Assembly (NCBI RefSeq): GCF_004924335.1
Contig: NZ_CP024633.1
Span: 3,596,001-3,660,000 of the forward strand
Source of the DNA: Mycobacteroides salmoniphilum
GTDB taxonomy: Bacteria; Actinomycetota; Actinomycetes; Mycobacteriales; Mycobacteriaceae
DNA: 64,000 bases
Direction of reading: 5' to 3'
The notes under the pieces are model-generated. The model made no database searches and had not been told where the DNA came from. It was given only the letters and a program-made list of their open reading frames with translations. This document shows, one piece after another, positions 7,337 to 57,011 of this stretch (within the stretch, counting starts at the first letter, position 1; every line of letters begins with the position of its first letter). Both the position numbers and the translations under genes were made by a program.

Positions 7337-7954
7337 GTGAAGATCCGAGAACTATCGGTGCCCGGCGCCTTCGAGATCACCCCGGTGCAACATCACGACA
7401 GCCGGGGCGTGTTCCTCGAATTGTTCAAAGGCACAGCACTTACCGAGGCCATTGGCCACCCGTTCGACCTGCAACAAGCCAATTGCTCGGTATCGGCGGC
7501 CGGGTCACTGCGCGGAATACACTTCGCCGACGTGCCGCCCGGACAAGCCAAGTACGTCACCTGCCTGACGGGGTCCGTGTATGACGTCGTGGTCGACATC
7601 CGCGTGGGGTCACCGACGTTCGGCGCTTGGGACGCAGTACTTCTCGATCCCCAAGACCGCCGCGCCGTGTATGTACCGGAGGGGGTCGGCCACGGGTTTC
7701 TGGCACTCGATGATGACTCGACGGTGGTCTACCTATGCTCCGCCGGATACGCCCCGGGCCGCGAGCACGGCGTCAATCCGCTGGATCCCACCGTCGGGAT
7801 CGCATGGCCGACCAGCCGGCCCGACGGCACCGAGTTGCCACTGGTTGTTTCCGAAAAAGACAGTGCTGCACCATCATTGCTCGATGCCAGGGAGTCCGGC
7901 CTACTCCCGGCCGCCAGCGACGTTGCGGCATTCCTGGAGAGCCTCTCTCACTGA
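7337..7954 (+). CDS. rmlC: dTDP-4-dehydrorhamnose 3,5-epimerase
   Basis: Third step of dTDP-L-rhamnose synthesis. About 205 residues of the RmlC cupin family, containing HHDSRGVFLELFK, GSLRGIHFADVPPGQAKYV (catalytic His in the RGIHF segment) and VYVPEGVGHGFLAL. Translation starts at GTG 7337, one base after the rmlB stop, so the two genes are probably translationally coupled. RmlA and RmlD are not in the window. Confidence 0.95.
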   Translation: MKIRELSVPGAFEITPVQHHDSRGVFLELFKGTALTEAIGHPFDLQQANCSVSAAGSLRGIHFADVPPGQAKYVTCLTGSVYDVVVDIRVGSPTFGAWDAVLLDPQDRRAVYVPEGVGHGFLALDDDSTVVYLCSAGYAPGREHGVNPLDPTVGIAWPTSRPDGTELPLVVSEKDSAAPSLLDARESGLLPAASDVAAFLESLSH

Positions 7955-44395: not shown

Positions 44396-45898
44396 TCAGG
44401 TGAGCCGCGCGGAACCATCCGCCGCGACTTCGATTGACGCACCGGCGATATCGGTGTCCGCGATCTGCGCCGCCGCAGCGCGGTCGTCGATCTTGGCGAA
44501 GGTACGCGCCCCGGTGGGGGTACGCACGCTCACGAATGTCTGGAATGGCGATCCGTCTCGTCCATAGTTGACGGTCCAGGCCTCGACGGTTGCCGCGCCC
44601 GAATACCCATCGGCCGCCGCGGTTCTGGGCTCCCGATCGACGTCGGACTGCACGTCCTCGTACCTGAAGCCGGATGTGGGCGGCTCGGTTCCGTAGATTC
44701 CGAATGCGTGCTTGGTGAGGTATCCGCCATTGGCTGTGATCAGCCCCTTAGCACCGGGACGCTCACGCAGCCGCTCGGCCATGGTGGCAATGGAATGGGT
44801 CACGTAGTTGCACCAGGGGCCACCGGCGAACGTGAGTCCACCGGTGACCGTGAGCGGCCGCGCCGGGTCATCGAGCGCCACTCCCAGCTCGGTGGCCGCG
44901 ACCTGCACCGCCGAGGGGAAACACGAATAGATGTCGATCAGGTCCACGTCATCGGTTCCCAGACCGGCGATATCGAATGCGCGCTTGCCCGCAAGGCGGA
45001 TGGCCGGAGACCGATGCAGCTCGTCGCGTTCACTGAGCGCGAAGGTGTCGTTGGCCTGGCTGCCAGCGAGCGGAAATATCCAGCGGTCCTTAGGAATTCG
45101 GAGCCGTCGCGCTGTCTCTAGTGAGGTGAGCAGCAGCACCGCCCCCTGCTCGACCATGTTGTTGGAGTTCATCAGCTTGGTGTACGGCGAGCTGATCCAC
45201 CGATTGTCGGGACCGGGTGTGGCGATCTGCTCGGCGGTGTACGCATCGTTGGACCAGGCATGCACGTTGTTCACGGCCACGGCGTTGAAGCGCTGCCACA
45301 GCTGAGAAATCGCGGCGCGATGGTCGGCGACGGACACACCGTTGGCGACCCGAATCGCCTGCTCGAACAGCGGATACACATGGCCGGGAGAGATCAGGCC
45401 AATGGTGGTCTCGGCACCGCCCACCTGATCCATGCGGCCGCCGAGAATGGCTGGTTCGGCAATGGATTCGTCTTGCGTGGTCCACGTGGGCTGGACACCG
45501 GTGGCCATCATCTTGTTGCGCGACCGCCACATCTCCGCCCCGCCGATGAGAACCACCTCGGCATCCCCGGCGAGAATGTCCGCGGCCGCATGGTTGACCA
45601 ACAGCTGCGGCGAGTTGCCGCTGGGCCCGGTGTAGAACGTGCGCTTGGGCGCCGAACCCAGGCGTTCACCGAGCAGCACGCCGGGGTCGCGATACTTCCA
45701 CGAGAAGATGTTCGCCACGGACACCGTGTCGATCGCGGTGAGCAACTCGGCCGCCCCCGCATCCTCGGCCGCCAGCCGGGCCGCTCGCTCCATAAGATCG
45801 AGGGGTTCGGGGATCTCGGAGAACGGACAATCGGCATCCGTCCGCTGGTTGACCTGTCCGGTACCGACGAGGACCGGCGTGCGAGGGTCGAGGGCCAT
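44396..45898 (-). CDS. Thiolase-superfamily protein (acetyl-CoA acetyltransferase-like)
   Basis: 500 residues. Thiolase-like features are RTPVLVGTGQVNQR, VVLIGGAEMWRSRNKMMATG, the late segment DLIDIYSCFPSAVQVAATEL and LTFAGGPWCNYVTHSIATMA. The usual catalytic Cys of degradative thiolases is not obvious near residue 90, so it may be a diverged, non-thiolytic member such as the Rv1867-type proteins. The ATG at 45898 has TACCAT 6 nt upstream and an adjacent palindrome, so it has its own promoter although it lies 47 bp after eutC. Confidence 0.8.
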   Translation of the reverse strand: MALDPRTPVLVGTGQVNQRTDADCPFSEIPEPLDLMERAARLAAEDAGAAELLTAIDTVSVANIFSWKYRDPGVLLGERLGSAPKRTFYTGPSGNSPQLLVNHAAADILAGDAEVVLIGGAEMWRSRNKMMATGVQPTWTTQDESIAEPAILGGRMDQVGGAETTIGLISPGHVYPLFEQAIRVANGVSVADHRAAISQLWQRFNAVAVNNVHAWSNDAYTAEQIATPGPDNRWISSPYTKLMNSNNMVEQGAVLLLTSLETARRLRIPKDRWIFPLAGSQANDTFALSERDELHRSPAIRLAGKRAFDIAGLGTDDVDLIDIYSCFPSAVQVAATELGVALDDPARPLTVTGGLTFAGGPWCNYVTHSIATMAERLRERPGAKGLITANGGYLTKHAFGIYGTEPPTSGFRYEDVQSDVDREPRTAAADGYSGAATVEAWTVNYGRDGSPFQTFVSVRTPTGARTFAKIDDRAAAAQIADTDIAGASIEVAADGSARLT

Positions 45899-45904
45899 GA
45901 GCCG

Positions 45905-45928
45905 ATGGTAACCAACCACCCGGTTGGT
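45905..45928 (-). promoter_or_regulatory. Palindromic operator beside a -10 box for the thiolase-like gene
   Basis: ACCAACC (45911-45917) and GGTTGGT (45922-45928) are perfect 7-bp arms with a 4-bp centre. Directly downstream on the minus strand, TACCAT (45910-45905) ends 6 nt before the ATG at 45898. A repressor bound between -35 and -10 would block the promoter. The pattern is TetR-like; the regulator is unknown. Confidence 0.65.
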
Positions 45929-45945: not shown

Positions 45946-46731
45946 CTACGTGGTGAGAGCGGGCCCGGACCCCTCGATCTGACTACCCGCGCCCGTCATG
46001 TCCTTGAGGGCGACGCCTGATCGACCGATCTCACGTGCGCCCGCCACCAGGGCGGCAACGACCTGCGCCGCCTGGTCGTAGCCCAACCCTTCCGGCGGAT
46101 GGATGTTGGACACGCAATTACGTTGTGCATCACTGCATCCGACAACAGGATTGTGTGTGAGGTATATCCCGACGCTGTCGGCGACGGACAGGCCGGGACG
46201 TTCCCCGATGAGTACCAGGACAGTGTCGACGCCAAGTGCGACGCCGATGTGGTCACCCAGGGCCACCCGCGCCTGTGTCGCGATGACGAGCGGCGCGATC
46301 GAATATCCGTGAAGCCGCTGGTGTAGCGCCTGTAATAGCGGGACCCCGTGGTCGTCGAGGGCGCGCGGAGACAAACCGTCAGCCAGCACGATGCCGATAT
46401 CGGCGGCGGAATCCGACAGCACATCCAGCGCGCCATCGGCGGGAGCCCGACCCAGGTCCGGGCGGCGTAAATACTCGGATCGATCGCCCGCCCGGCTGGT
46501 CACCCGCAGCGGCGTACCCAATCCGAGACCGTCGATACGGCCGGCCAGGGCGCGTGCGTCCAGCGGCGTGTGCACCGCGTCGCGAGCGGCAGCGTGTGCG
46601 GTCCCGAACTCCAGCACTCGACTGGTGGGCAACGCATCCCCACTGCGCCCCAACCCGATTCGTGACTGCGTGGAACGGCGTAACGTATCCCAGATATCCT
46701 CCGCCGCTCCGTTGTTCGCGACATCACTCAT
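45946..46731 (-). CDS. eutC: Ethanolamine ammonia-lyase small subunit
   Basis: 261 residues. It has the EutC core QSRIGLGRSGDALPTSRVLE, DIGIVLADGLSPRALDDHGV, LIGERPGLSVADSVGIYLTH and CSDAQRNCVSNIHPPEGLGY. With EutB it forms the adenosylcobalamin enzyme that splits ethanolamine into acetaldehyde and ammonia. The start overlaps the eutB stop by 4 bp. It lacks the long N-terminal targeting sequence of microcompartment-associated EutC. Confidence 0.95.
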   Translation of the reverse strand: MSDVANNGAAEDIWDTLRRSTQSRIGLGRSGDALPTSRVLEFGTAHAAARDAVHTPLDARALAGRIDGLGLGTPLRVTSRAGDRSEYLRRPDLGRAPADGALDVLSDSAADIGIVLADGLSPRALDDHGVPLLQALHQRLHGYSIAPLVIATQARVALGDHIGVALGVDTVLVLIGERPGLSVADSVGIYLTHNPVVGCSDAQRNCVSNIHPPEGLGYDQAAQVVAALVAGAREIGRSGVALKDMTGAGSQIEGSGPALTT

Positions 46732-48131
46732 AACAGCGCCCGCAACGGCGAGTCGTTGACCGCAATTTCACGCAGCCCCCCATCGCGGTCCAGCATGCCC
46801 ATGCGCTCAAGCCAGTCGTTGAACTCCGGGGCCGGCCGCAAGCCGAAGGTGCGACGCGCGAACAGCGCATCGTGGAAGGACAGACTCTGGTATCCGAGCA
46901 TGACGTCGTCGGCCCCGGGCACCGCGATGACAAACGCAACCCCCGCGGCCGTGAGCACGGTGAGCAGGACGTCCATATCATCCGAATCAGCCTCGGCATG
47001 ATTGGTGTAGCAGACATCCACCCCCATCGGGAGCCCCAGAAGCTTGCCGCAGAAGTGATCCTCCAGGCCAGCCCTGATGATCTGCTTCCCGTCGTAAAGG
47101 TATTCCGGCCCAATGAATCCCACAACGGTATTGACCAGGAGTGGTTCCACCTCCCGCGCGACCGCATAGGCCCGGGCCTCTAGCGTCTGCTGATCTACCG
47201 CGACGCCACCCACCCCGAGATGCGCCCCAGCCGAGAGCGCCGATCCCTGGCCCGTCTCCAGGTACATGACGTTATTACCCACGGTGCCCCGCGCCAGCGA
47301 ACGCCCGGCCTCATTCGCCTCACGCAGGAGCGCCAGGTTGACCCCAAAGCTCTCGTTGGCACCCTCGGTACCGGCGATCGACTGAAAAACCAAGTCCACC
47401 GGTAGATTTCGCTCGATGAGCTCCATGGTGGTGGTGACGTGCGCGAGCACGCACGACTGTGTGGGGATGTCGAATCTCAGGCGAATGTCGTCGATGAGAC
47501 GCAGCAGGTCGGCCGCGGCATGTGGGGAATCGGTCGCCGGATTGATGCCGATGACGGCGTCGCCGCAACCCAGTAGCAGACCGTCGAGGGTGGCAGCGGC
47601 GATACCGCGCGCGTCGTCGGTGGGATGGTTGGGCTGCAATCGGGTCGCCAACGTGCCCGGCAGTCCGATGGTCGTACGAAAAGCACTATGGTTGCGCACC
47701 GCGGCACCGACGGCAATGAGGTCCTGATTGCGCATCAGCTTGCTGACAGCAGCCACCATCTCCGGAGTCAATCCGAGCGAAATATCCCTGAGCGACTGCG
47801 CCCCATGGGGTTTGGTGATGGTCTCCAGTAACCAGTCGCGGAAATCGCCGACGGTGAGATGCGAGATCACCGCGAAGGCCTCCGCATCATGGCTGTCAAT
47901 GATCAGCCGGGTGACCTCGTCGGTGTCGTACGGGACGATCTCCTCGGACAGGAAGTCCGCGAGCGGTACCTCGGCGAGTACCCACCGTGCGGCGGCCCGC
48001 TCGGCGTCCGACTGCGCCGCGCAGCCCGCGAGCTCGTCACCGGACCGAGGCGGCGAGGCCTTCGCGAGAACTTCGGCGAGCGACCTGAACTGGTACGTGA
48101 CCGGCCCGACAATGTGGCGAAAAGTGCTCAT
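46728..48131 (-). CDS. eutB: Ethanolamine ammonia-lyase large subunit
   Basis: 467 residues, TIM-barrel subunit that binds ethanolamine and the B12 cofactor. Motifs are YDTDEVTRLIIDSHDAEAFA, GLPGTLATRLQPNHPTDDAR, GINPATDSPHAAADLLRLID, FQSIAGTEGANESFGVNLAL (substrate Glu) and the late PMGVDVCYTNHAEADSDDMD. It starts 7 bp after the permease. No microcompartment shell, EutA reactivase, EutD or EutE lies in the window, so the acetaldehyde is not obviously sequestered. Confidence 0.96.
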   Translation of the reverse strand: MSTFRHIVGPVTYQFRSLAEVLAKASPPRSGDELAGCAAQSDAERAAARWVLAEVPLADFLSEEIVPYDTDEVTRLIIDSHDAEAFAVISHLTVGDFRDWLLETITKPHGAQSLRDISLGLTPEMVAAVSKLMRNQDLIAVGAAVRNHSAFRTTIGLPGTLATRLQPNHPTDDARGIAAATLDGLLLGCGDAVIGINPATDSPHAAADLLRLIDDIRLRFDIPTQSCVLAHVTTTMELIERNLPVDLVFQSIAGTEGANESFGVNLALLREANEAGRSLARGTVGNNVMYLETGQGSALSAGAHLGVGGVAVDQQTLEARAYAVAREVEPLLVNTVVGFIGPEYLYDGKQIIRAGLEDHFCGKLLGLPMGVDVCYTNHAEADSDDMDVLLTVLTAAGVAFVIAVPGADDVMLGYQSLSFHDALFARRTFGLRPAPEFNDWLERMGMLDRDGGLREIAVNDSPLRALL

Positions 48132-48138
48132 AATGTGC

Positions 48139-49602
48139 CTATTTCAGTTCGTTCTCGGCTTCTGCAAGCGCCGCGAACTCCTCGTCCGGGGAGTTCGCGA
48201 CCAAACGGTGACGGCTATACAACCCAAAATACGCCATAAACAGGATGAATACGCCGAACGTGGCGAAAGCCGCGGTGGTATCGACGATGAATGTCGCCAC
48301 CACCGCAGCACAGGCGATCACGAGCGCGAACCCGCTGGTGGCGATGCCACCCGGGGTGCGGTACGGCCGCGGCATCTCCGGCTCGCGAATGCGCAGCACA
48401 ATGTGGCTCACCATCATCAGCACATAGCTCAGTGCCGCACCGAACACCGCCATGTTGAGCAGCATCGCCCCTTTACCGCTGAGCGACAACAGGAATCCGA
48501 TGATTCCGGGCACGATCAGCGCCAGCACGGGAGCCTTCCTACTGTTGGTGACCGACAACCCGGTCGGTAGGTAGCCTGCCCGGGACAACGCGAAGGTCTG
48601 CCGACTGTAGGCGTAGACAATGGAGAAGAAGCTAGCGATGAGTCCGGCCAGCCCGATGTAATTGACCGCCTTGGCCACCGTGGTGGTGCCCAGCGCCTCT
48701 ACCAAGGGATTCCCGGACTGCCCCATCGCTTCGGCGCCGCCCGCTCCGGGCACCAGGATCAGCACGGCCGTACCGGTGACGACAAGCACCAGCATCGCCA
48801 TCACAATGCCGCGCGGGATGTTCTTGGCGGGATCGCGGGCTTCCTCGGCGGCCAGCGGCACGCCCTCGATCGCCAGGAACAACCAGATCGCAAACGGCAC
48901 CGCTGCCCAGATTCCCAAATATCCGTTGGGTAGGAATGCCGATGCACCCGTTGCCGTTTCATCGACGGGAATGTTGGTGAGGTTCTTCGCGTCGAATCGG
49001 CCGACGGCTCCGATGGCGAAGGTGATGAGGCCGACGAGCGCGATCCCCGTGATGATGAACATCGTCCTGAGTGCCTCACCCGCACCGCTGAGGTGGATGC
49101 CGATGAAGATCGCGTACACCGCCAGATAGATCCACCACCCGTCCTTGAGGCCGAACAGGTGCAGTGATTCGACATAACTTCCGATGAAGGTGGCGATGGC
49201 GGCCGGCGCGATCGCGTACTCAATGAGAATTGCGGTCCCCGTGGCGAATCCGCCCCAGGGGCCCATCGCGCGCCGGGCAAAGGTGTACCCGCCGCCCGCG
49301 GTGGGTAATGCCGACGACATCTCCGCCATGCTGAGCACCATGGACAGATACATCGCGGCGATGACGACGGCCGCGATGGCCATCCCGCCGAAACCGCCCT
49401 TGCTCAGGCCGGTGTTCCAGCCGGCGTAGTCTCCGGAAATCACGTAGCTCACGCCGAGCCCCGCCAGCAGCACCCAGCCCGCGGTACCCGATCTCAGCTG
49501 CCGCCGGGCGAGGTAGTCGGCACCTTCGAGGTGCGATTGGACGCCGGCATGATCAAGCGGCGCCTCGGCACGTGAACTGACGGCGTCATCGGGAGTCGAC
49601 AT
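48139..49602 (-). CDS. eat: Ethanolamine permease, APC superfamily
   Basis: 487 residues with twelve predicted helices. The N-terminus has GTAGWVLLAGLGVSYVISGD and YAGWNTGLSKGGFGG, a signature of ethanolamine permeases, then MAEMSSALPTAGGGYTFARR. Assignment to ethanolamine is strengthened by the eutB-eutC genes directly downstream. The ATG at 49602 is chosen over a frame start at 49692 that lies inside mftG. It begins 61 bp after mftG on the same strand; CACAAT upstream is only a weak -10. Confidence 0.9.
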   Translation of the reverse strand: MSTPDDAVSSRAEAPLDHAGVQSHLEGADYLARRQLRSGTAGWVLLAGLGVSYVISGDYAGWNTGLSKGGFGGMAIAAVVIAAMYLSMVLSMAEMSSALPTAGGGYTFARRAMGPWGGFATGTAILIEYAIAPAAIATFIGSYVESLHLFGLKDGWWIYLAVYAIFIGIHLSGAGEALRTMFIITGIALVGLITFAIGAVGRFDAKNLTNIPVDETATGASAFLPNGYLGIWAAVPFAIWLFLAIEGVPLAAEEARDPAKNIPRGIVMAMLVLVVTGTAVLILVPGAGGAEAMGQSGNPLVEALGTTTVAKAVNYIGLAGLIASFFSIVYAYSRQTFALSRAGYLPTGLSVTNSRKAPVLALIVPGIIGFLLSLSGKGAMLLNMAVFGAALSYVLMMVSHIVLRIREPEMPRPYRTPGGIATSGFALVIACAAVVATFIVDTTAAFATFGVFILFMAYFGLYSRHRLVANSPDEEFAALAEAENELK

Positions 49603-49663
49603 CGTCCAATTGTGCGACCGATGGCGTGCGCGCGTGCGGTAGACGCCAAGATTCGCACTCCTG

Positions 49664-51148
49664 TTACGACCACGCAACAAACTGGGCCGCACGATGCCCG
49701 ATCATCGCGATCGTGGCCGCTGGTCCCCGGCTCGGAATGGTCGGCATGATCGACCCGTCGATCACGAACAGCCCATCGATTCCCCTGACACGACAGTACT
49801 TGTCGACGACCGCATGCTTGTCCTCGTCATTGCCCATCGGGGCGGTCGCGCACAGATGCTGCGAGGTGGACCACCGCGGACCACCGAACCGTCGTCCATA
49901 CAGTTCGGTCACCAGACGCACTCCGTCGCGCAAGCGATCCATGTCTGCCGTCTCGCTGTCGTACCGCAAGTCGATGTATACGGGCGCCGCGGGATCGGTC
50001 GAACGCAGTTCAAGCCGGCCGCGACACCTCGGCGTCATCAACGCGACACCGATCTGCCGCGGATCCGCACCGCTCACCGCCACCCCCGCCATGGCTGCGA
50101 ATCCGGTTGTATACGGCCGTATCTCGATACCCATCTGACGATCGGTGTGCAACACAGTGTCCAGAACGGGATAGCCCTGCTGCCCCTCGTCGCCCGTGTC
50201 CAACACCCATTCCGCGTGGTCCATCACCCGGGTACCGACACCGGGCAGGTCGACAACGGGCTCAACGCCCACCGCGCGTAAGTCATCCGCGGGCCCTATC
50301 CCGGACAGCAACAGCAGCTTCGCCGTCTCAATCGCTCCCGCACTCAAAATGATTCGATCGGCGGTCAGCGTACGCACCGAGTTCCCCACCGCCACCTGCA
50401 CACCGGTCGCACGCCCGCCGCCGCAGAGCACCCGCAGCACACGGGTACCTGAGTACACCGCGAGATTTGGGCGCCAACCCGCCCCCTCCAGATATGCGCG
50501 CGCGGGCCCAACTCGCATCCCGCTGTCGATATTGAGCGGCACCAGTCCCACCCCGACACCGGCCTTGCCATTGAGATCCGCCACCACCGAATACCCGCCT
50601 TTGACTGCGAGCTCGGCCAATTCCTTTCCAGCGCTACTCTGTTCGTGCTTTCGGCCGATCGGTATGGGCCCCGACGACCCATGTAACGGGTCATCCCGAA
50701 AGTCACGGTCCGTCTCCATCGCCCGGAAGTGATCGCGAACATCTGCCCAGGCCCATCCCGGCACCGACCATCCGTCAAAATCCGCGGGCCGGCCACGCAC
50801 GAAGTAGCCGCCGTTGATTGCGCCGGAGCCGCCCACCACCGATCCTCGCACCAACTCTGCCTGATCGCCCGTGGACGTCAGCGTCGCCCAGTAGTACGTG
50901 GCTATCTGGCTGTCCGGCCCAATCGGCAGTCGGTACCCGTCGCGTACGCCGTCCTCGTCCGCGGAGGATGCCGGGCCGGCCTCGACAAGCACCACCCGGA
51001 ACGATGGGTCCCCGGAAAGGCGCCCTGCCAGAATCGATCCCGCGCTGCCCGCGCCCACGATGAGCGCATCCGCATGGATCGGCCTGCTCAGGGCCGTAGT
51101 TCCGGTCGGAGCGCACCGAGATCGCGCTCCTGCACAATCCCGGACCAC
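49664..51148 (-). CDS. mftG: Mycofactocin system GMC oxidoreductase
   Basis: FAD-dependent GMC-family dehydrogenase that passes electrons from reduced mycofactocin to respiration (established in M. smegmatis on ethanol). Motifs are the FAD site [60 protein letters not shown], the catalytic-His region [13 protein letters not shown] and [19 protein letters not shown]. The start is problematic: the only standard codon before the FAD motif is GTG 51148, which overlaps mftF by 61 bp. A CTG at 51091 overlaps the mftF stop by 4 bp and may be real. Confidence 0.92.
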
Positions 51149-52536
51149 AGGCCAATCCCATAGGCGATGTCGTCGAGGCGCTTCAGCAGTACGTACTCGA
51201 GCAGACCGATGCGATCATCGGGAGAGGCCGAATTGTCGTTGCGCTTCATCCAATCCACCACGCCGTCGACAATCGCGGCCACAACGAGCACCTGGCGGCT
51301 GCGCCGGGACAGCGCGGCCGCCACCAACGCCAACGGCCAGTAGTGGCGGCAGAGCGCGGACGCGATCTGCAACGCCGCACCGCCCACACCTTGGGCGGCT
51401 ACCCGAACGACGTCCCGTGGCGGGGTATCGACTCCCCGGAGTGTCCTCGCGACGCGCCCCGCCGCGAGCGCGGCCATGCCTGCCGCGGCCAGATAGCCCA
51501 TCCCCGAACCCACCGCTACGAGAATCCACACCAGCAGCGTCCACCGCGAGATGACCATCGGCGCCACCTTGTCGGGATGACGCGTCGACAGCGGCGCCGC
51601 ACTCTTTCCATAGAATGTCTTGCGCGCGAACCATTCTCGAAGAGTAAGCCTGTGGTCATGGGCCACCTGGGACACCGGCTCGTACCGAAGCCGCGACCCC
51701 GCCTCGATGAGCCGCCAGCACAGATCCACGTCCTCGCCGCACTGCAGTGACTCGTCGAAGCCGCCAATCTCGTCGATGGCGACCCGCCTCACCACGATGG
51801 CGGCACTGGGGACGTACGACACCGGGCCGTACGGTACGACCGGCGCCTCACGAAGGCCGAGATCCAACGAGGACCTGACTGCTTCATACCGAGCAATCGC
51901 ATTGTCGCTCAACACTAATCCAACAATCCGCGGAGCAACCAGAGCCACCGCGGGATCGCTGAAGTGCCCCAGCAGTCCCTCCAGCCAACCGCGCCTGGGC
52001 ACCACATCCGAATCAAGGAACGCGACGAAGTCCGTGGTCGCCAGCTTCAGCCCGGTGTTGCGGGCCGCCGCCGGACCCTGACTGTCGGTGTGCCGCACCA
52101 CCCGCACGTCACAGTGCATACCCTCCAGCTCGCACTCCACGATCGGAATGGTGGAACCGTCGTCGATAACGATCACGCGCATTCCGCGCAGTGCCCGCAG
52201 CAGTCGACGTAATCCAAAACCATTGTTACGGCATGGAATAACGACAGTCACGTCCCGATAGCCCGGACCACTCGTGGGGCGCGGGTGGGCGACGGTCGCA
52301 TCGAGCAGCGTCCGGGCCAGCTGAGCGCTCGTCGCATCGCGTACCTCAAGCCGCCCGCCGGAAAGCAGCGTCCGCGCGGCAGGCGCCAGTCGCAGGAGCC
52401 GAGTCGGCGACCCACCCAGCAGCGCCGACCCCTCGTCGAGCACGCGAACCCGTCGATCCACCTGAACCGCGAATCCATCGGGTAGCCGTCCGTGTGATGC
52501 GGACATGCCCTGCACCGCGTCGTCGCTCGTCGTCAT
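51088..52536 (-). CDS. mftF: Mycofactocin glycosyltransferase
   Basis: 482-residue family-2 glycosyltransferase that adds an oligoglucose chain to premycofactocin. GT2 motifs are [49 protein letters not shown] with the following SDV (DxD metal site), and [19 protein letters not shown] (acceptor-side Glu-Asp). The C-terminal part has several membrane segments ([18 protein letters not shown]). The ATG overlaps the mftE stop by 4 bp. Confidence 0.94.
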
Positions 52537-53255
52537 ACCAGCCGCCCGTCGGCATCAGGTAACCAACGGCGCACCGCGTTGGCGCATCGTCGGGTCATCG
52601 TCGCGAGCATCCGCGCGCCGTCCTGGCTGCTGGCGGTCGTCGGATCTCCGAGCACACCGATCGCGCTGACCGCCGCTACGCCGCCCGCACGCATCGGCGC
52701 CATCAGCTCGTGCAGCGGTGCCGAGTTTCCGGCGAGCACTTCCTCGTGGCGCACTGCATCCGGTGAAATATGTAGCAGCAGAGATGTTTCCGCATGTCCA
52801 GCGTGCGCGTCACCGCCTTCGACCGCGCACGCCCACCACGCGATATCGCGGCCCTCCGAACGCAGGAGCCGCACCGCGGAGACCGTCGCCTCGATGTTGC
52901 CGCCGTGACCGTTCACGAACACGATGCGTCGGCACCACTGCGTGGCCGACCTGCCGTACTCCACGAGGACCTGGGTCAGCGCCGCGGTACCGATCGAGAT
53001 CGTTCCAGCGAAGGATTGATGTTCTCCGCTGGATCCGTACGCGAGGGCAGGGGCGAGAGCCGTCCGGCCGGCGCCCGCATCGGAGGCCAGCATCTCGGCC
53101 GCAGCGGTAGCCACAGCATCGGCAATCCGGGTGTCGGTATCCAACGGCAAGTGCGGCCCGTGTTGCTCGGTTGAGCCGAGCGGGGTGAACAGCGTGATGG
53201 CCTCGTCTGCGAGCTCCGGAGAGATGGCGGTGCTCAAGACAGTCGGTACAGCCAC
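52533..53255 (-). CDS. mftE: Mycofactocin precursor peptidase (creatininase family)
   Basis: 240 residues. Metal-ligand motifs of the creatininase fold are [35 protein letters not shown] and [19 protein letters not shown]. MftE cuts the modified MftA peptide to release the C-terminal Val-Tyr-derived AHDP core. The GTG at 53255 has TACCAT 6 nt upstream, so this gene may have its own leaderless start inside the operon, after a 181-bp gap from mftD. The longer frame from 53309 is not supported. Confidence 0.93.
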
Positions 53256-53261
53256 CCGCCG

Positions 53262-53267
53262 ATGGTA
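53262..53267 (-). promoter_or_regulatory. Internal -10 hexamer upstream of mftE
   Basis: TACCAT on the minus strand ends 6 nt before GTG 53255. It lies in the only large gap (181 bp, 53256-53436) of the mft cluster. No -35 match was found. Confidence 0.45.
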
Positions 53268-53436
53268 GGCCGAATTCACGCCAAATGCATCCAAAGTTGG
53301 CCCACCCAATTGAGGTCTTTACATCCTTGCTGGCCGTCGGCTTAGGTGCTGGGCGCTATTTCGCACCGATTGTCACGCCAGCCCCTGCCGCCACATCGAC
53401 CCTGCCGACACCGTGTTCAATTCCCGATGCGCTGAA

Positions 53437-54615
53437 CTAGTGCCGTCCGAGGCCCCGGGCAAATCCGTCAGGGACGAGAAGATCATCTGGGGATAGTTCG
53501 TGCACAGATTTCTTGCCGAGCCCCATCAGTGCCGAATCGATGCCGCCGCGCATGATGTCCAGAACATTTTCGACGCCGGCCTGACCCGAGGCCGCCAGGC
53601 CCCAGAGATACGCCCGTCCGATCATCACCGCACGCGCTCCAAGTGCCAATGCCTTGACGACATCGCTACCCCGCCGAATGCCGCCATCCAGCAGCACCTC
53701 GACGTCACCACCGACAGCCTGTGCGATGCCCGGCAACGCACGGATCGACGCGGGCGTTCCATCGAGATTGTTACCGCCGTGATTCGACACCGAAATCGCC
53801 GAAACTCCGCAATCTACAGCCCTTTTGGCATCATCAATGCGCATGACGCCCTTGAGCATGAATGGACCGTCCCATTGCTCACGCATCCATTGAACGTCAT
53901 CCCATGTCGGCGCCGGAGTTCCCATCCACTGCCCGTAGGCATCGAAGAAGGGCGGCCCGGCCTCGCCGCGAGCAGCCTGGTTGGGCACCCGCAAATCCGG
54001 AATGTTCATCTTCTTCCCGAACGACCACAGCCAGCCGGGCTTGGTGACCACTTCCGGCGCCAGCCGGATCATCGACCGCAAGTTCATCTTCTCGGGTATG
54101 GAAGGGCTGCCCCAATCACGACCGTGCGAAAAGCTCCAGTCAAGCGTGGCGATAAGACCCACTGCACCAGCATCTTTCGCACGCTGAATGCGCTGGGCAA
54201 CATCGTCACGCCCGCCTAGCCAGTAAATCTGGAAGTGCGTCTTCGGATTCGCGGCCACCACATCCTCGATGGGCTTACTCGCGAAGGAGGACAATCCCAT
54301 GGCGGTTCCACGTGCGGCGGCGGCCCGGGCCACCGCCACCTCACCGTCGGGATCAACGGCCTGAACCCCGGTCGGAGAGATCATCACCGGTAACGAGATC
54401 TCTTGCCCTAGAACAGTTGTCGACAGTTCACGGTCCGGCTGAATGCCGACGACGTGAGGCTCGAATCCGAGCTCTGCGAACGCCTCGACATTGTCACTGA
54501 CGGTCAGCCCCTTTTCACTGGCGGAGATCAGCGAGCTGTAGACGGACCTCGGCAGTCGCTTCTTGGCCCGTTGCTGGGCAATCGCGACCGTCTCGAACCA
54601 TGTGTTGCGGGCCAT
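53437..54615 (-). CDS. mftD: Mycofactocin system FMN-dependent dehydrogenase
   Basis: 392 residues of the alpha-hydroxy-acid oxidase/LldD family with an FMN TIM barrel. Motifs are LPVMISPTGVQAVDPDGEVA, ATLDWSFSHGRDWG, the active-site AISVSNHGGNNLDGTPAS (catalytic His) and EVLLDGGIRRGSDVVKALAL. In mycofactocin biosynthesis it oxidatively deaminates AHDP to pre-mycofactocin, creating the redox-active alpha-keto amide. The ATG immediately follows the mftC stop (1-bp step). Confidence 0.95.
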   Translation of the reverse strand: MARNTWFETVAIAQQRAKKRLPRSVYSSLISASEKGLTVSDNVEAFAELGFEPHVVGIQPDRELSTTVLGQEISLPVMISPTGVQAVDPDGEVAVARAAAARGTAMGLSSFASKPIEDVVAANPKTHFQIYWLGGRDDVAQRIQRAKDAGAVGLIATLDWSFSHGRDWGSPSIPEKMNLRSMIRLAPEVVTKPGWLWSFGKKMNIPDLRVPNQAARGEAGPPFFDAYGQWMGTPAPTWDDVQWMREQWDGPFMLKGVMRIDDAKRAVDCGVSAISVSNHGGNNLDGTPASIRALPGIAQAVGGDVEVLLDGGIRRGSDVVKALALGARAVMIGRAYLWGLAASGQAGVENVLDIMRGGIDSALMGLGKKSVHELSPDDLLVPDGFARGLGRH

Positions 54616-55890
54616 CTACCGTCCTGCTCGTACATTGGAAATGGGGTTCTCATCGCATGCGCGCGAGGGTGGCCGACGCGTCAGAGTCAGGGCAACGGGG
54701 CCCCCGGACGGTCCGCGCTTGCCCTTCGAATGCGAGTGGTCGCCACTGGGTTTGGGCACCACTCGATCGGCGGCCAGGGCCGCCTCGCCATAGCCCTGCA
54801 CGCACTCCGGGTCGGGCCCGTCCATCGGCAACCCGGTGAAGAACTTGGCCGCCATGCAGCCGCCCCGGCAGCTGTCGTAATGCCCGCAACTGCCGCATGC
54901 ACCCGCGGACTGCGGCTCACGTAACTCGGTGAACAGCTGCGAGTGCTTCCAGACCGTGTCAAATCCACCGTCGGACAACACATTTCCGGCACGGAATCGG
55001 TCATGGATGGCAAACGGGCAGGCATAGACATCGCCCACCGGATCGATCAGGCACACCACCCGCCCGGCGCCGCACATGTTCAGGCCCGGCAAACCCCCGG
55101 ACCCGTCGCCGTAGGCCGATAGGTGGAAGAAGGAATCGCCCGTGAGTACCCGCTCGCCATTGGGCACCAGCCAGTCGTACAGCTGACGCTGCTGGGCGGG
55201 GGTGGGATGGAGCTCGTCCCACACATCGGCGCCACGACCGGAGGGACGCAGTCGCGTAATCCGCAGTGTGGCACCGTATTTTGCGGCCAGATCCGCGAAC
55301 TCATCGAGCTGGTCCACATTGTGGCGGGTAACCACCACCGAGATCTTGGCGTCCTTGAATCCGGCGGCGGCCAGGTTCTCCAGCGCGCGCACCGCCATGG
55401 CGAACGATCCCACACCGCGCACGGCGTCGTTGACCTCCGCGGTCGCGCCATCCAGTGAGATCTGTACATCGACGTAGTCGCTCGCGGCCAGTCGCGCCGC
55501 CACCTCCTCGGTGATACGCACGCCGTTGGTCGAGAATTTGACCCCTACGTGATGCTCGGTCGCGTAATCAACGAGCTCCCAAAAGTCTGATCGCACAGTG
55601 GGTTCGCCGCCGCCGATGTTCACGTAGAACACCTGCATGCGTTCGAGCTCGTCGATGATGTCCTTGCACTGCCTGGTGGACAGCTCACGTGGATCGCGCT
55701 TGCCCGATGACGAGAGGCAATGCACACAGGACAGATTGCAGGCGTAGGTCAGCTCCCAGGTAAGGCAGATGGGAGCATCCAGCCCCTGCTCGAACTGATC
55801 CACGAGTCTCGGAGCCGCGACGCCGGCGACATCCAGTCTCGGAGCCGCGACGCCGGCGACATTCGGGCGGGGTACTGCGGGAGCGCTCAT
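54616..55890 (-). CDS. mftC: Mycofactocin radical SAM maturase
   Basis: 424 residues. The radical SAM cluster is C51-x3-C55-x2-C58 in YACNLSCVHCLSS, followed by VNIGGGEPTVRSDF. C-terminal SPASM auxiliary-cluster cysteines are in NMCGAGRVVCLIDPVGDVYA and ACGSCGHYDSCRGGCMAAKF. It decarboxylates and crosslinks the C-terminal Val-Tyr of MftA. The N-terminus holds a tandem 10-residue duplication (VAGVAAPRLD twice). A ~45-residue polar C-terminal tail extends beyond the usual end. One-base overlap with mftB. Confidence 0.97.
   Translation of the reverse strand: MSAPAVPRPNVAGVAAPRLDVAGVAAPRLVDQFEQGLDAPICLTWELTYACNLSCVHCLSSSGKRDPRELSTRQCKDIIDELERMQVFYVNIGGGEPTVRSDFWELVDYATEHHVGVKFSTNGVRITEEVAARLAASDYVDVQISLDGATAEVNDAVRGVGSFAMAVRALENLAAAGFKDAKISVVVTRHNVDQLDEFADLAAKYGATLRITRLRPSGRGADVWDELHPTPAQQRQLYDWLVPNGERVLTGDSFFHLSAYGDGSGGLPGLNMCGAGRVVCLIDPVGDVYACPFAIHDRFRAGNVLSDGGFDTVWKHSQLFTELREPQSAGACGSCGHYDSCRGGCMAAKFFTGLPMDGPDPECVQGYGEAALAADRVVPKPSGDHSHSKGKRGPSGGPVALTLTRRPPSRACDENPISNVRAGR
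55806..55865 (-). repeat. 30-bp in-frame tandem duplication in the mftC N-terminus
   Basis: Units 55806-55835 and 55836-55865 are identical over the first 27 bp. They encode residues ~11-30 as two copies of VAGVAAPRLD-like sequence. The region precedes the radical SAM fold, so it is probably a flexible tail. Confidence 0.9.
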
Positions 55891-56192
55891 CAGGCGTCCT
55901 CTCGGGTCACGATCATCTTTGAATCTGCCAGTACCGCCAGGGCCCGCTGGTACGCGGCAACCTGACCGTCCTCGACACCAGCGGCCCGCCAAGCATTCTC
56001 GGCACTGCTGTGGTCGGTAAGGGATTGCACGATCTGCAACAGGGTGCGGTTCTTCAGGAAGGACAGCTTGCGGGTGCCGAAGTGGTAGAGCAGCGCCCCG
56101 AACGGCTCCGGACGCAACGACACCTGGGGGTGTAACTGCCAGGGCCGGGTCCAGTCGAAACCGGCGGGCGCCTCGTCAATCATGGCGCTCAT
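55890..56192 (-). CDS. mftB: Mycofactocin precursor chaperone (RRE protein)
   Basis: 100 residues of the PqqD-like RiPP recognition element family. It has LHPQVSLRPEPFGALLYHFG and RKLSFLKNRTLLQIVQSLTD, typical for MftB, which binds the MftA leader and delivers it to MftC. The ATG at 56192 is chosen; an ATG three codons later (56183) is possible, and the frame from 56222 overlaps mftA. It lies 14 bp after mftA. Confidence 0.95.
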   Translation of the reverse strand: MSAMIDEAPAGFDWTRPWQLHPQVSLRPEPFGALLYHFGTRKLSFLKNRTLLQIVQSLTDHSSAENAWRAAGVEDGQVAAYQRALAVLADSKMIVTREDA

Positions 56193-56206
56193 CGAGACCG
56201 GGCGTC

Positions 56207-56311
56207 TCAGTAGACGCCGCACATCCCGTCGATCGATACCTCTTCGACCAGCGATTCCTGCACCAGTTCGGTGTCGGTGGTCTGTCCGGCGACAGTGGTG
56301 GGCTCGGCCAT
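56207..56311 (-). CDS. mftA: Mycofactocin precursor peptide
   Basis: 34 residues starting [20 protein letters not shown] and ending IDGMCGVY. The conserved terminal Val-Tyr is the pair converted into the cofactor core; the acidic leader is bound by MftB. It is too short for normal gene finders, but the AAAGGAG ribosome site 7 bp before the ATG, the neighbours and the C-terminus make it certain. Lysines are absent, as is usual. First gene of the mft operon, divergent from mftR. Confidence 0.97.
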
Positions 56312-56414
56312 CTGTTCACTCCTTTGTGAGTCTGGACTGTGGCAACGATCACGATAATAATGGCATCGAGTGCAGAAAGGGAAGAGGGTGTCAGGAAATG
56401 GTGGAGTTCTCGAC
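56312..56414. promoter_or_regulatory. mftA-mftR divergent promoter/operator region
   Basis: 103 bp between divergent starts. For mftA, TATTAT (56359-56354, minus strand, 5 of 6 to consensus) would start transcription about 36 nt before the ATG, ahead of an AAAGGAG site. A -35 is poor. MftR, the TetR protein encoded on the other side, is known in M. smegmatis to repress the cluster; a clear long palindrome was not found by eye. Confidence 0.6.
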
Positions 56415-57011
56415 ATGAATGCGCAGCCGACGCGCGTAGGACGACGCCCTTCCACAACCCGGGACGAGATCACCGCGGTTGCCATGGCGCTGTTCACGCA
56501 GCGCAGCTTCGACGACGTCAGCGTCGATGACATCGCCGCGGCAGCCGGCATCGCCCGGCGCACGGTGTTTCGGTACTACAGCTCTAAGAACGCAATCGTG
56601 TGGGGCGACTTCGATTCTCACCTGGAGGTGATGCGTGCGCTGTTGGATGAGACTCCGGACACCGTGGACATCAGCACCGCACTGCGCCAGGCGCTGTTGA
56701 CATTCAACAACTTTCCGGTCGACGAAGCCCCGCGACACCGCATGCGGATGAGACTGATCCTGGAGATCCCGGCGCTACAGGCATATTCGATGCTGATGTA
56801 CACCGGCTGGCGTGACGTCATCGCACAGTTCGTGGCCAAACGCAGCGGGGCGGATCCCACTGCCCTCTTGCCGCAGACCGTCGGCTGGACACTGCTCGGC
56901 GTGGCGCTCGCCGCCTACGAACAATGGCTCGCCGACGAATCGTCGGCGCTTACCGCGCTACTCGGCAAGGGCTTCGACGCCGCCGAGGCGGGGCTGCGAG
57001 CCCTCGGCTAA
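56415..57011 (+). CDS. mftR: Mycofactocin system TetR-family repressor
   Basis: 198 residues. The N-terminal helix-turn-helix is [20 protein letters not shown] and [19 protein letters not shown], with the TetR signature FxxYSSK. The C-terminal ligand domain is all-helical. MftR is reported to sense long-chain acyl-CoA and repress mft genes (established for M. smegmatis). The ATG at 56415 has a GGTGGAG site 8 bp upstream and is preferred to a GTG at 56370. It converges on the ferredoxin reductase gene. Confidence 0.92.

Follow-up and report, generated by a model that had tools for sequence, protein, structure and literature searches.

An ethanolamine permease and ammonia-lyase gene set lies directly behind the mycofactocin cluster in Mycobacteroides salmoniphilum and its relatives

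Mycofactocin is known for alcohol oxidation. In the window, a stretch of 64,000 nucleotides from Mycobacteroides salmoniphilum that was analysed as a whole, the mycofactocin genes run into genes for ethanolamine use. The original prediction had given the order as mftABCDEFG, a gap of 61 bp, eat, eutB and eutC, all on the minus strand, and this order is exact, with the start of mftA at 56311 and the stop of eutC at 45946 as its ends. The features are as follows (family scores in bits, each against the family cut-off):

56370..57011, plus strand: mftR, TetR-type regulator of mft, divergent from mftA (TIGR03968, 294 vs 225)
56312..56369, no strand: mftA-mftR intergenic region, with TATTAT conserved in 9/9 aligned genomes
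56207..56311, minus strand: mftA, mycofactocin precursor peptide with C-terminal MCGVY (TIGR03969, 51.3 vs 25)
55890..56192, minus strand: mftB, chaperone (TIGR03967, 116 vs 33); the open frame extends to 56222, the likely ATG is at 56192
54616..55890, minus strand: mftC, radical SAM maturase (TIGR03962, 666 vs 265)
53437..54615, minus strand: mftD, pre-mycofactocin synthase (TIGR03966, 720 vs 471)
52533..53309, minus strand: mftE, peptidase, start uncertain (TIGR03964, 356 vs 172)
51088..52536, minus strand: mftF, glycosyltransferase (TIGR03965, 604 vs 280)
49664..51148, minus strand: mftG, mycofactocin dehydrogenase (TIGR03970, 545 vs 387); start uncertain, the frame overlaps mftF
49603..49663, minus strand: mftG-eat gap, 61 bp from the mftG stop to the eat ATG
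48139..49602, minus strand: eat, ethanolamine permease, mft-linked copy (TIGR00908 equivalog, 513.9 vs 381.75)
46728..48131, minus strand: eutB, ethanolamine ammonia-lyase large subunit, mft-linked (PF06751, 692; NF011649, 694 vs 554)
45946..46731, minus strand: eutC, ethanolamine ammonia-lyase small subunit (NF003971, 298 vs 230)
44396..45919, minus strand: thiolase-like gene (NF006103, 846 vs 757)

As can be seen from the scores, mftA to mftF and MftG each exceed their own NCBIfam equivalog cut-off, and both subunits of the mft-linked lyase exceed theirs. The thiolase-like gene, missed by the original prediction, begins 26 bp 3' of eutC, is present behind eutC at the loci of 11/11 genomes of the Mycobacteroides (chelonae-abscessus) clade, and is a possible last gene of the unit. 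No aldehyde dehydrogenase gene was found within the mft-linked eut unit when the locus was read in the window and in the clade genomes. In the window, a P450 gene on the opposite strand faces the thiolase-like gene.

The mftG-eat junction is kept intact in 10 genomes. The 61-bp gap holds no promoter- or terminator-like match, TANNNT is absent from it in 10/10 genomes, and the 14 bp that immediately precede the eat ATG do not vary among the ten. Considering that the gap is short and free of signals and that the junction is conserved, co-expression of mft and eut is plausible, and co-transcription of the mft genes with eat-eutBC appears likely from the sequence of the locus. The mftA-mftR region, with TATTAT read as a -10 element, is the likely promoter of the unit. 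A Mycobacterium smegmatis-type MftR operator at mftA was dropped as a candidate, as the palindrome described for that species (PMC8728441, accessible part) has no match near mftA at up to one mismatch.

We then compared the distance between EutB and MftG across the genus. Among 248 genomes, EutB was matched in 97 (96 above the cut-off) and MftG in 240 (E 1e-90); 94 of the 96 EutB genomes that were placed had a listed MftG, and 61 carried both genes on one contig, a count that leaves out G123 (an EutB fragment) and further EutB pieces of G089. The two genes lie within 5 kb of each other in 9 of these 61 genomes, 39.9 kb apart in one, 71-211 kb in 27, 308-441 kb in 14 and more than 1.7 Mb in 10, so that among the 52 genomes outside the clade the nearest pair is the one at 39.9 kb. 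All nine close cases have two EutB genes and the same locus; one is Mycobacteroides franklinii, and we place the others in the same group from protein identities of 83-100% at the locus. A DNA search of 396 genus genomes with a 1,100-bp probe spanning the mftG-eat junction, in which the two best candidates were scored in each genome, recovered the whole probe in 10 and added two linked genomes, G656 and G666, both with the full gene order. In G220, which matches the mftG part alone, eat has been lost from the locus and eutB still lies behind mftG. The adjacency, which might have been a peculiarity of one strain, is thus found as eutB behind mftG in 11 clade genomes. The mftA-G clusters reported for other mycobacteria share all seven genes and mftR, of the same families (PMC11778925, PMC6529628 and PMC3023750, each in its accessible part), whereas four mft loci read in other Mycobacterium genomes (L024-L027) differ from the window in having no eut gene beside mftG. 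At one of these, L026, a P450 gene directly faces mftG.

The genome from which the window is taken (one contig, 4.78 Mb) contains two EutB genes. The second belongs to an operon that the original prediction had missed, located ∼1.1 Mb from the mft locus (C1:2523657-2530302) and arranged as regulator, aldehyde dehydrogenase, eat, eutB and eutC. Its permease and lyase are of the same families as those of the mft-linked set, but this native operon differs in carrying its own regulator and ExaC and in the tree branch to which its permease and lyase belong. At 951 vs 900, its aldehyde dehydrogenase is above the cut-off of the equivalog family for ExaC acetaldehyde dehydrogenase. Since the second operon already provides ExaC together with eat-eutBC, the mft-linked genes constitute an additional set that lacks an aldehyde dehydrogenase of its own. 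The complete second operon occurs elsewhere in 9/9 clade genomes read, and a further ExaC relative of 74-75% identity in 11/11. As for the two genomes added by the junction search, G666 has the second permease with a 98% ExaC beside it; G656 is missing both the second permease and a near-identical ExaC, retains the linked set and the 74% ExaC relative, and for this reason appears to carry the linked set only. The regulator of the second operon had been labelled by eye as a GAF regulator, a label we rejected on finding no Pfam match at E up to 10; its R. maanshanensis homologue likewise gave nothing significant in Pfam, the two regulators matched a DhaR-like NCBIfam model weakly (47 and 64 bits vs a cut-off of 551), and a PDB search with the regulator returned weak matches only.

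A second linkage, differently arranged, was found in relatives outside the genus. Among 80 named EutB loci, 5 of the 7 from Rhodococcus (L050, L058, L068, L069 and L071) have mft genes upstream of eut and in the same orientation; L060, from R. coprophilus, shows no mft, and L046 spans just 4.9 kb. Of 401 genomes searched in the family, 245 contain EutB, and 224 of these are outside the genus Mycobacterium. MftF was searched in the 136 of these for which the place of EutB was listed, the other 88 being left out, and was present in 133. With a limit of 15 kb, mft and eut are linked in 66 of the 136, at 1.7 to 11.6 kb, and without exception mft is the upstream partner and shares the strand of eut. 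The linked genomes fall in five genera (g6, 32/33; g24, 22/23; g10, 5/5; g22, 4/6; g28, 3/6), which we label the Rhodococcus group because its named members, among them R. maanshanensis (g22) and Rhodococcus sp. UNC23MFCrub1.1 (g6), are Rhodococcus. Linkage was seen in 0/23 genomes of g9, where only 6 have both genes on one contig, in 0/23 of g23, where only 8 do, and in 0/17 of eight smaller genera. The 70 non-linked genomes comprise 20 with both genes on one contig, at least 295 kb apart, and 50 that have no mft-eut distance, the genes being on different contigs or mft absent.

Twenty of the 66 linked loci were read. Homologues of the second-operon regulator and of ExaC stand between mft and eut in 19, and an Eat homologue in 15; in two (L130 and L131) no mftG was seen. 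The R. maanshanensis locus has in addition a DUF779 gene between ExaC and eat. The exception is G311, in which mftG is followed directly by eutB and eutC, with the regulator and ExaC at another place. Linkage of mft and eut is above chance, given the 11 clade genomes and the different arrangement in 66 of 136 genomes outside Mycobacterium, although 66 does not count independent events since the linked genomes are related. At the same time, the many relatives that lack the link (g9, g23 and the 52 Mycobacterium genomes) indicate that it is dispensable.

One explanation for the arrangement in the window is regulatory. M. smegmatis MftR is reported to bind long-chain acyl-CoA, and mft expression in that species goes up with oleic acid (PMC8728441, accessible part). 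If MftR frees the mft promoter in the same way here, the linked eut genes would be induced during use of phosphatidylethanolamine, the acyl chains being the signal and the head group the source of ethanolamine, while the other operon, with its own regulator, would answer other signals. The divergent mftR, which is above its family cut-off, fits this explanation, and two eut sets with different neighbours would fit two signals. However, the missing operator palindrome speaks against it, and it leaves the Rhodococcus-group link unexplained, as a separate regulator stands between mft and eut in that group. We consider it unlikely as the reason for the linkage.

In order to trace the linked copy, EutB trees were built that leave out most proteobacterial rows, L001, L002, L045, L056, L068, L069 (copies), G656 and G666. 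The mft-linked copies form one clade (100/100) on a long branch, and the second copies nest inside the native mycobacterial group (100/99). In a first tree the linked EutB stood apart from the Rhodococcus proteins and weakly beside Kitasatospora; in a more careful one it grouped with G311 and a Tsukamurella plasmid (96/78), this assemblage lying beside the native mycobacterial group (88/95, not starred). In a quick permease tree, calculated without bootstrap, linked eat grouped with sequences of Rhodococcus, Nocardia, Tsukamurella, Kitasatospora and a single member of the Propionibacteriaceae (SH-aLRT 96), and the second copy fell among the mycobacteria (91); L010 has no Eat. Duplication of the native eut operon within the clade was rejected, narrowly for EutB (linked and native copies forced together, p-AU 0.028) and by the separate placement of the permease in the quick tree.

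Since the linked copy is on a branch separate from the native one, it was probably acquired; in the simplest reading, to which the trees lend modest support, eat-eutBC came from outside Mycobacterium and was inserted behind mftG. A single mft-eut block inherited together with the Rhodococcus group is unsupported: gene order differs, since in the clade eat follows mftG without an intervening regulator or ExaC and a thiolase stands behind eutC, and the linked EutB is set apart in the first tree. Gene order and trees thus argue for two origins of the link without proving them. The grouping with G311 and the Tsukamurella plasmid may reflect a common donor for the linked EutB of the clade and of G311; the plasmid itself was rejected as a near donor, with just 77% DNA identity over the permease gene.

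The separate branch, and the many relatives without linkage, would also suit a passenger module that came by chance to lie downstream of an active promoter and was kept for ethanolamine use, with no metabolic tie to mycofactocin. Against this stand the occurrence of the link in two gene orders and two groups, always with mft preceding eut in the same orientation, and the direct mftG-eutB-eutC arrangement of G311. A mere passenger of this kind seems to us quite unlikely.

The mft-linked eut genes are under purifying selection. Comparison of the window with L004 gave dN/dS values of 0.030 for eutB (0.031 against L007), 0.055 for eutC and 0.050 for eat, next to 0.069 for mftG and 0.092 for the thiolase-like gene. 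Aligned to E. coli EutB (3abo) and counted by eye, the linked EutB keeps R160, Q162, N193, E287, F329 and D362, taken here as active-site residues of the E. coli enzyme. The absence of a microcompartment, claimed originally for the window, extends to whole genomes: the shell family PF00936 was found in 0/11 clade genomes. Shell proteins were also found in 0/6 Rhodococcus-group genomes, and in one (G021) of two other Mycobacterium genomes; a microcompartment has been suggested for M. smegmatis in a paper that describes the eut genes of this species and of M. marinum (PMC4428469, accessible part). The short eut operon of Acinetobacter baumannii likewise serves ethanolamine use without shell proteins. 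As described in the accessible text of PMC9426561, this putative four-gene operon includes a co-transcribed aldehyde dehydrogenase, unlike the mft-linked set, and its EutBC needed neither EutA nor EutE nor a shell to function in Salmonella; its regulator is a sigma54 activator, and that text makes no mention of mycofactocin.

How, then, might the two modules be connected? Zinc alcohol dehydrogenases of the mycofactocin type (TIGR03989) are above cut-off in 17/17 genomes searched, which favours working mycofactocin enzymes. The NDMA-dependent methanol dehydrogenase family TIGR04266, of which M. smegmatis MSMEG_6242 is presumably a member, gave no match in 10 genomes (nine of the clade and G311), in a search run without a mycobacterial positive control. 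In M. smegmatis, acetaldehyde is reported to rescue partially the growth of an mftC mutant in ethanol and to correct an MSMEG_6242 mutant (PMC6529628, accessible part), and the MftG study states that its own data rule out a requirement of mftG for assimilating acetaldehyde and acetate (PMC11778925, accessible part). Simultaneous rise of eutB and two alcohol dehydrogenases in the cold in Rhodococcus sp. JG3 (PMC6080646, accessible part) is a weak pointer to joint use of eut and alcohol dehydrogenases.

These mutants bear on the original proposal that mycofactocin-linked redox enzymes take up ethanolamine-derived acetaldehyde directly, in place of a compartment. The adjacency, the lack of detectable shell genes and the presence of mycofactocin-type alcohol dehydrogenases all speak for it. 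However, according to the accessible parts of both studies, the requirement for mycofactocin precedes acetaldehyde and mftG is dispensable for acetaldehyde or acetate use (PMC6529628, PMC11778925), and ExaC or an ExaC relative is present in 11/11 clade genomes. With its own ExaC and the 75% relative, the genome needs no special route for acetaldehyde; we regard direct handling as highly improbable, and the proposal is not supported in this form. A variant is that mycofactocin replaces the internal cofactor recycling of a microcompartment, a diffusible redox buffer in exchange for a shell, for which two lineages would have been selected. Nicotinoprotein dehydrogenases would turn the excess of acetaldehyde that unconfined EutBC releases into a store of ethanol, and mycofactocin and MftG would later re-oxidise this ethanol and pass the electrons to respiration. 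This, too, we hold to be very unlikely.

Since mycofactocin acts before acetaldehyde, which is the point where ethanolamine enters, both modules would feed one pool that ExaC drains. We therefore favour, at slightly better than even, a model in which an acquired eat-eutBC set behind mftG is read from the mft promoter, and mycofactocin and eut act as parallel feeders of this pool, with ExaC supplied in trans. The ancestor of the Mycobacteroides clade would have gained the set from outside Mycobacterium and fixed it directly behind mftG, where it would most likely be read from the mft promoter. Eat would bring ethanolamine into the cell, where EutBC with adenosylcobalamin is predicted to convert it to ammonia and acetaldehyde in the open cytosol. 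We infer that acetaldehyde would then flow to acetate through the NAD-type ExaC acetaldehyde dehydrogenase encoded in trans, and the same step should clear the acetaldehyde that mycofactocin-dependent alcohol dehydrogenases form from ethanol. Mycofactocin and eut would thus supply the pool side by side, and may benefit from joint expression, instead of following one another as steps of one route. Loci of the Rhodococcus group would lay out this scheme in a single place, with mft, the regulator, the ExaC homologue, DUF779 (where read), eat, eutB and eutC in succession. What speaks against the model is that the mft-linked unit itself lacks an aldehyde dehydrogenase, that TIGR04266 was not matched in the 10 genomes searched, and that many relatives are unlinked. 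Pseudomonas clusters for PQQ-dependent ethanol oxidation carry exaC; as proposed here, a redox-cofactor pathway for ethanol shares an ExaC-family acetaldehyde dehydrogenase, although the cofactor differs.

The original suggestion that this combination may be undescribed stands for the literature within reach, subscription papers (two on R. jostii) aside: we found no account of an mft-eut link there, including the accessible parts of PMC3023750, PMC4428469, PMC11166783, PMC7176365 and PMC6080646. Where mycofactocin and ethanolamine were mentioned together, the ethanolamine was a corrosion inhibitor.

Taken as a recurrent link in two groups and two gene orders, the arrangement suggests joint use of the two pathways by way of acetaldehyde, the product that they share, and points to a wider role of mycofactocin around the acetaldehyde node. 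The Mycobacteroides clade includes opportunistic pathogens. In this clade and in Rhodococcus, the mft-eut link would be a natural case of coping with ethanolamine-derived acetaldehyde without a microcompartment.

The 14 bp ahead of the start codon of the ethanolamine permease gene eat (positions 49603–49616) are invariant in 10 of 10 Mycobacteroides-clade genomes, and the remainder of the mftG–eat gap is variable, raising the possibility that this stretch is a control element or a translation signal. A single clade member, G220, has no permease gene between mftG and eutB (locus L010, about 7523–7693); eutB, eutC and the thiolase gene are retained there despite this loss.

In the Mycobacterium assembly G121, for which contamination is 5%, a 4,077-base contig (locus L028) carries an eat–eutB–eutC set that is nearly that of Pseudomonas psychrophila, and this contig is probably a contaminant. 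On contig C12 of G089, EutB is divided between two frames at two mirrored sites, reflecting either a broken gene or an assembly artefact.

Among Rhodococcus-group mft clusters, inspection by eye located large flavin-oxidoreductase-like genes between mftD and mftE at loci L126 and L133, accompanied at L126 by an SDR-like gene. In G311, mftG, eutB and eutC are followed on the same strand by what was judged by eye to be an AMP-ligase-like gene (L127), and ExaC adjoins its regulator homologue at a second locus with no eut genes (L148).

HAD-type hydrolase genes adjoin eut at two loci:

L139, 2188–3549: HAD-type hydrolase, R. maanshanensis
L044, 10726–11988: HAD-type hydrolase, Tsukamurella plasmid

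These hydrolases might release ethanolamine from phosphoethanolamine.
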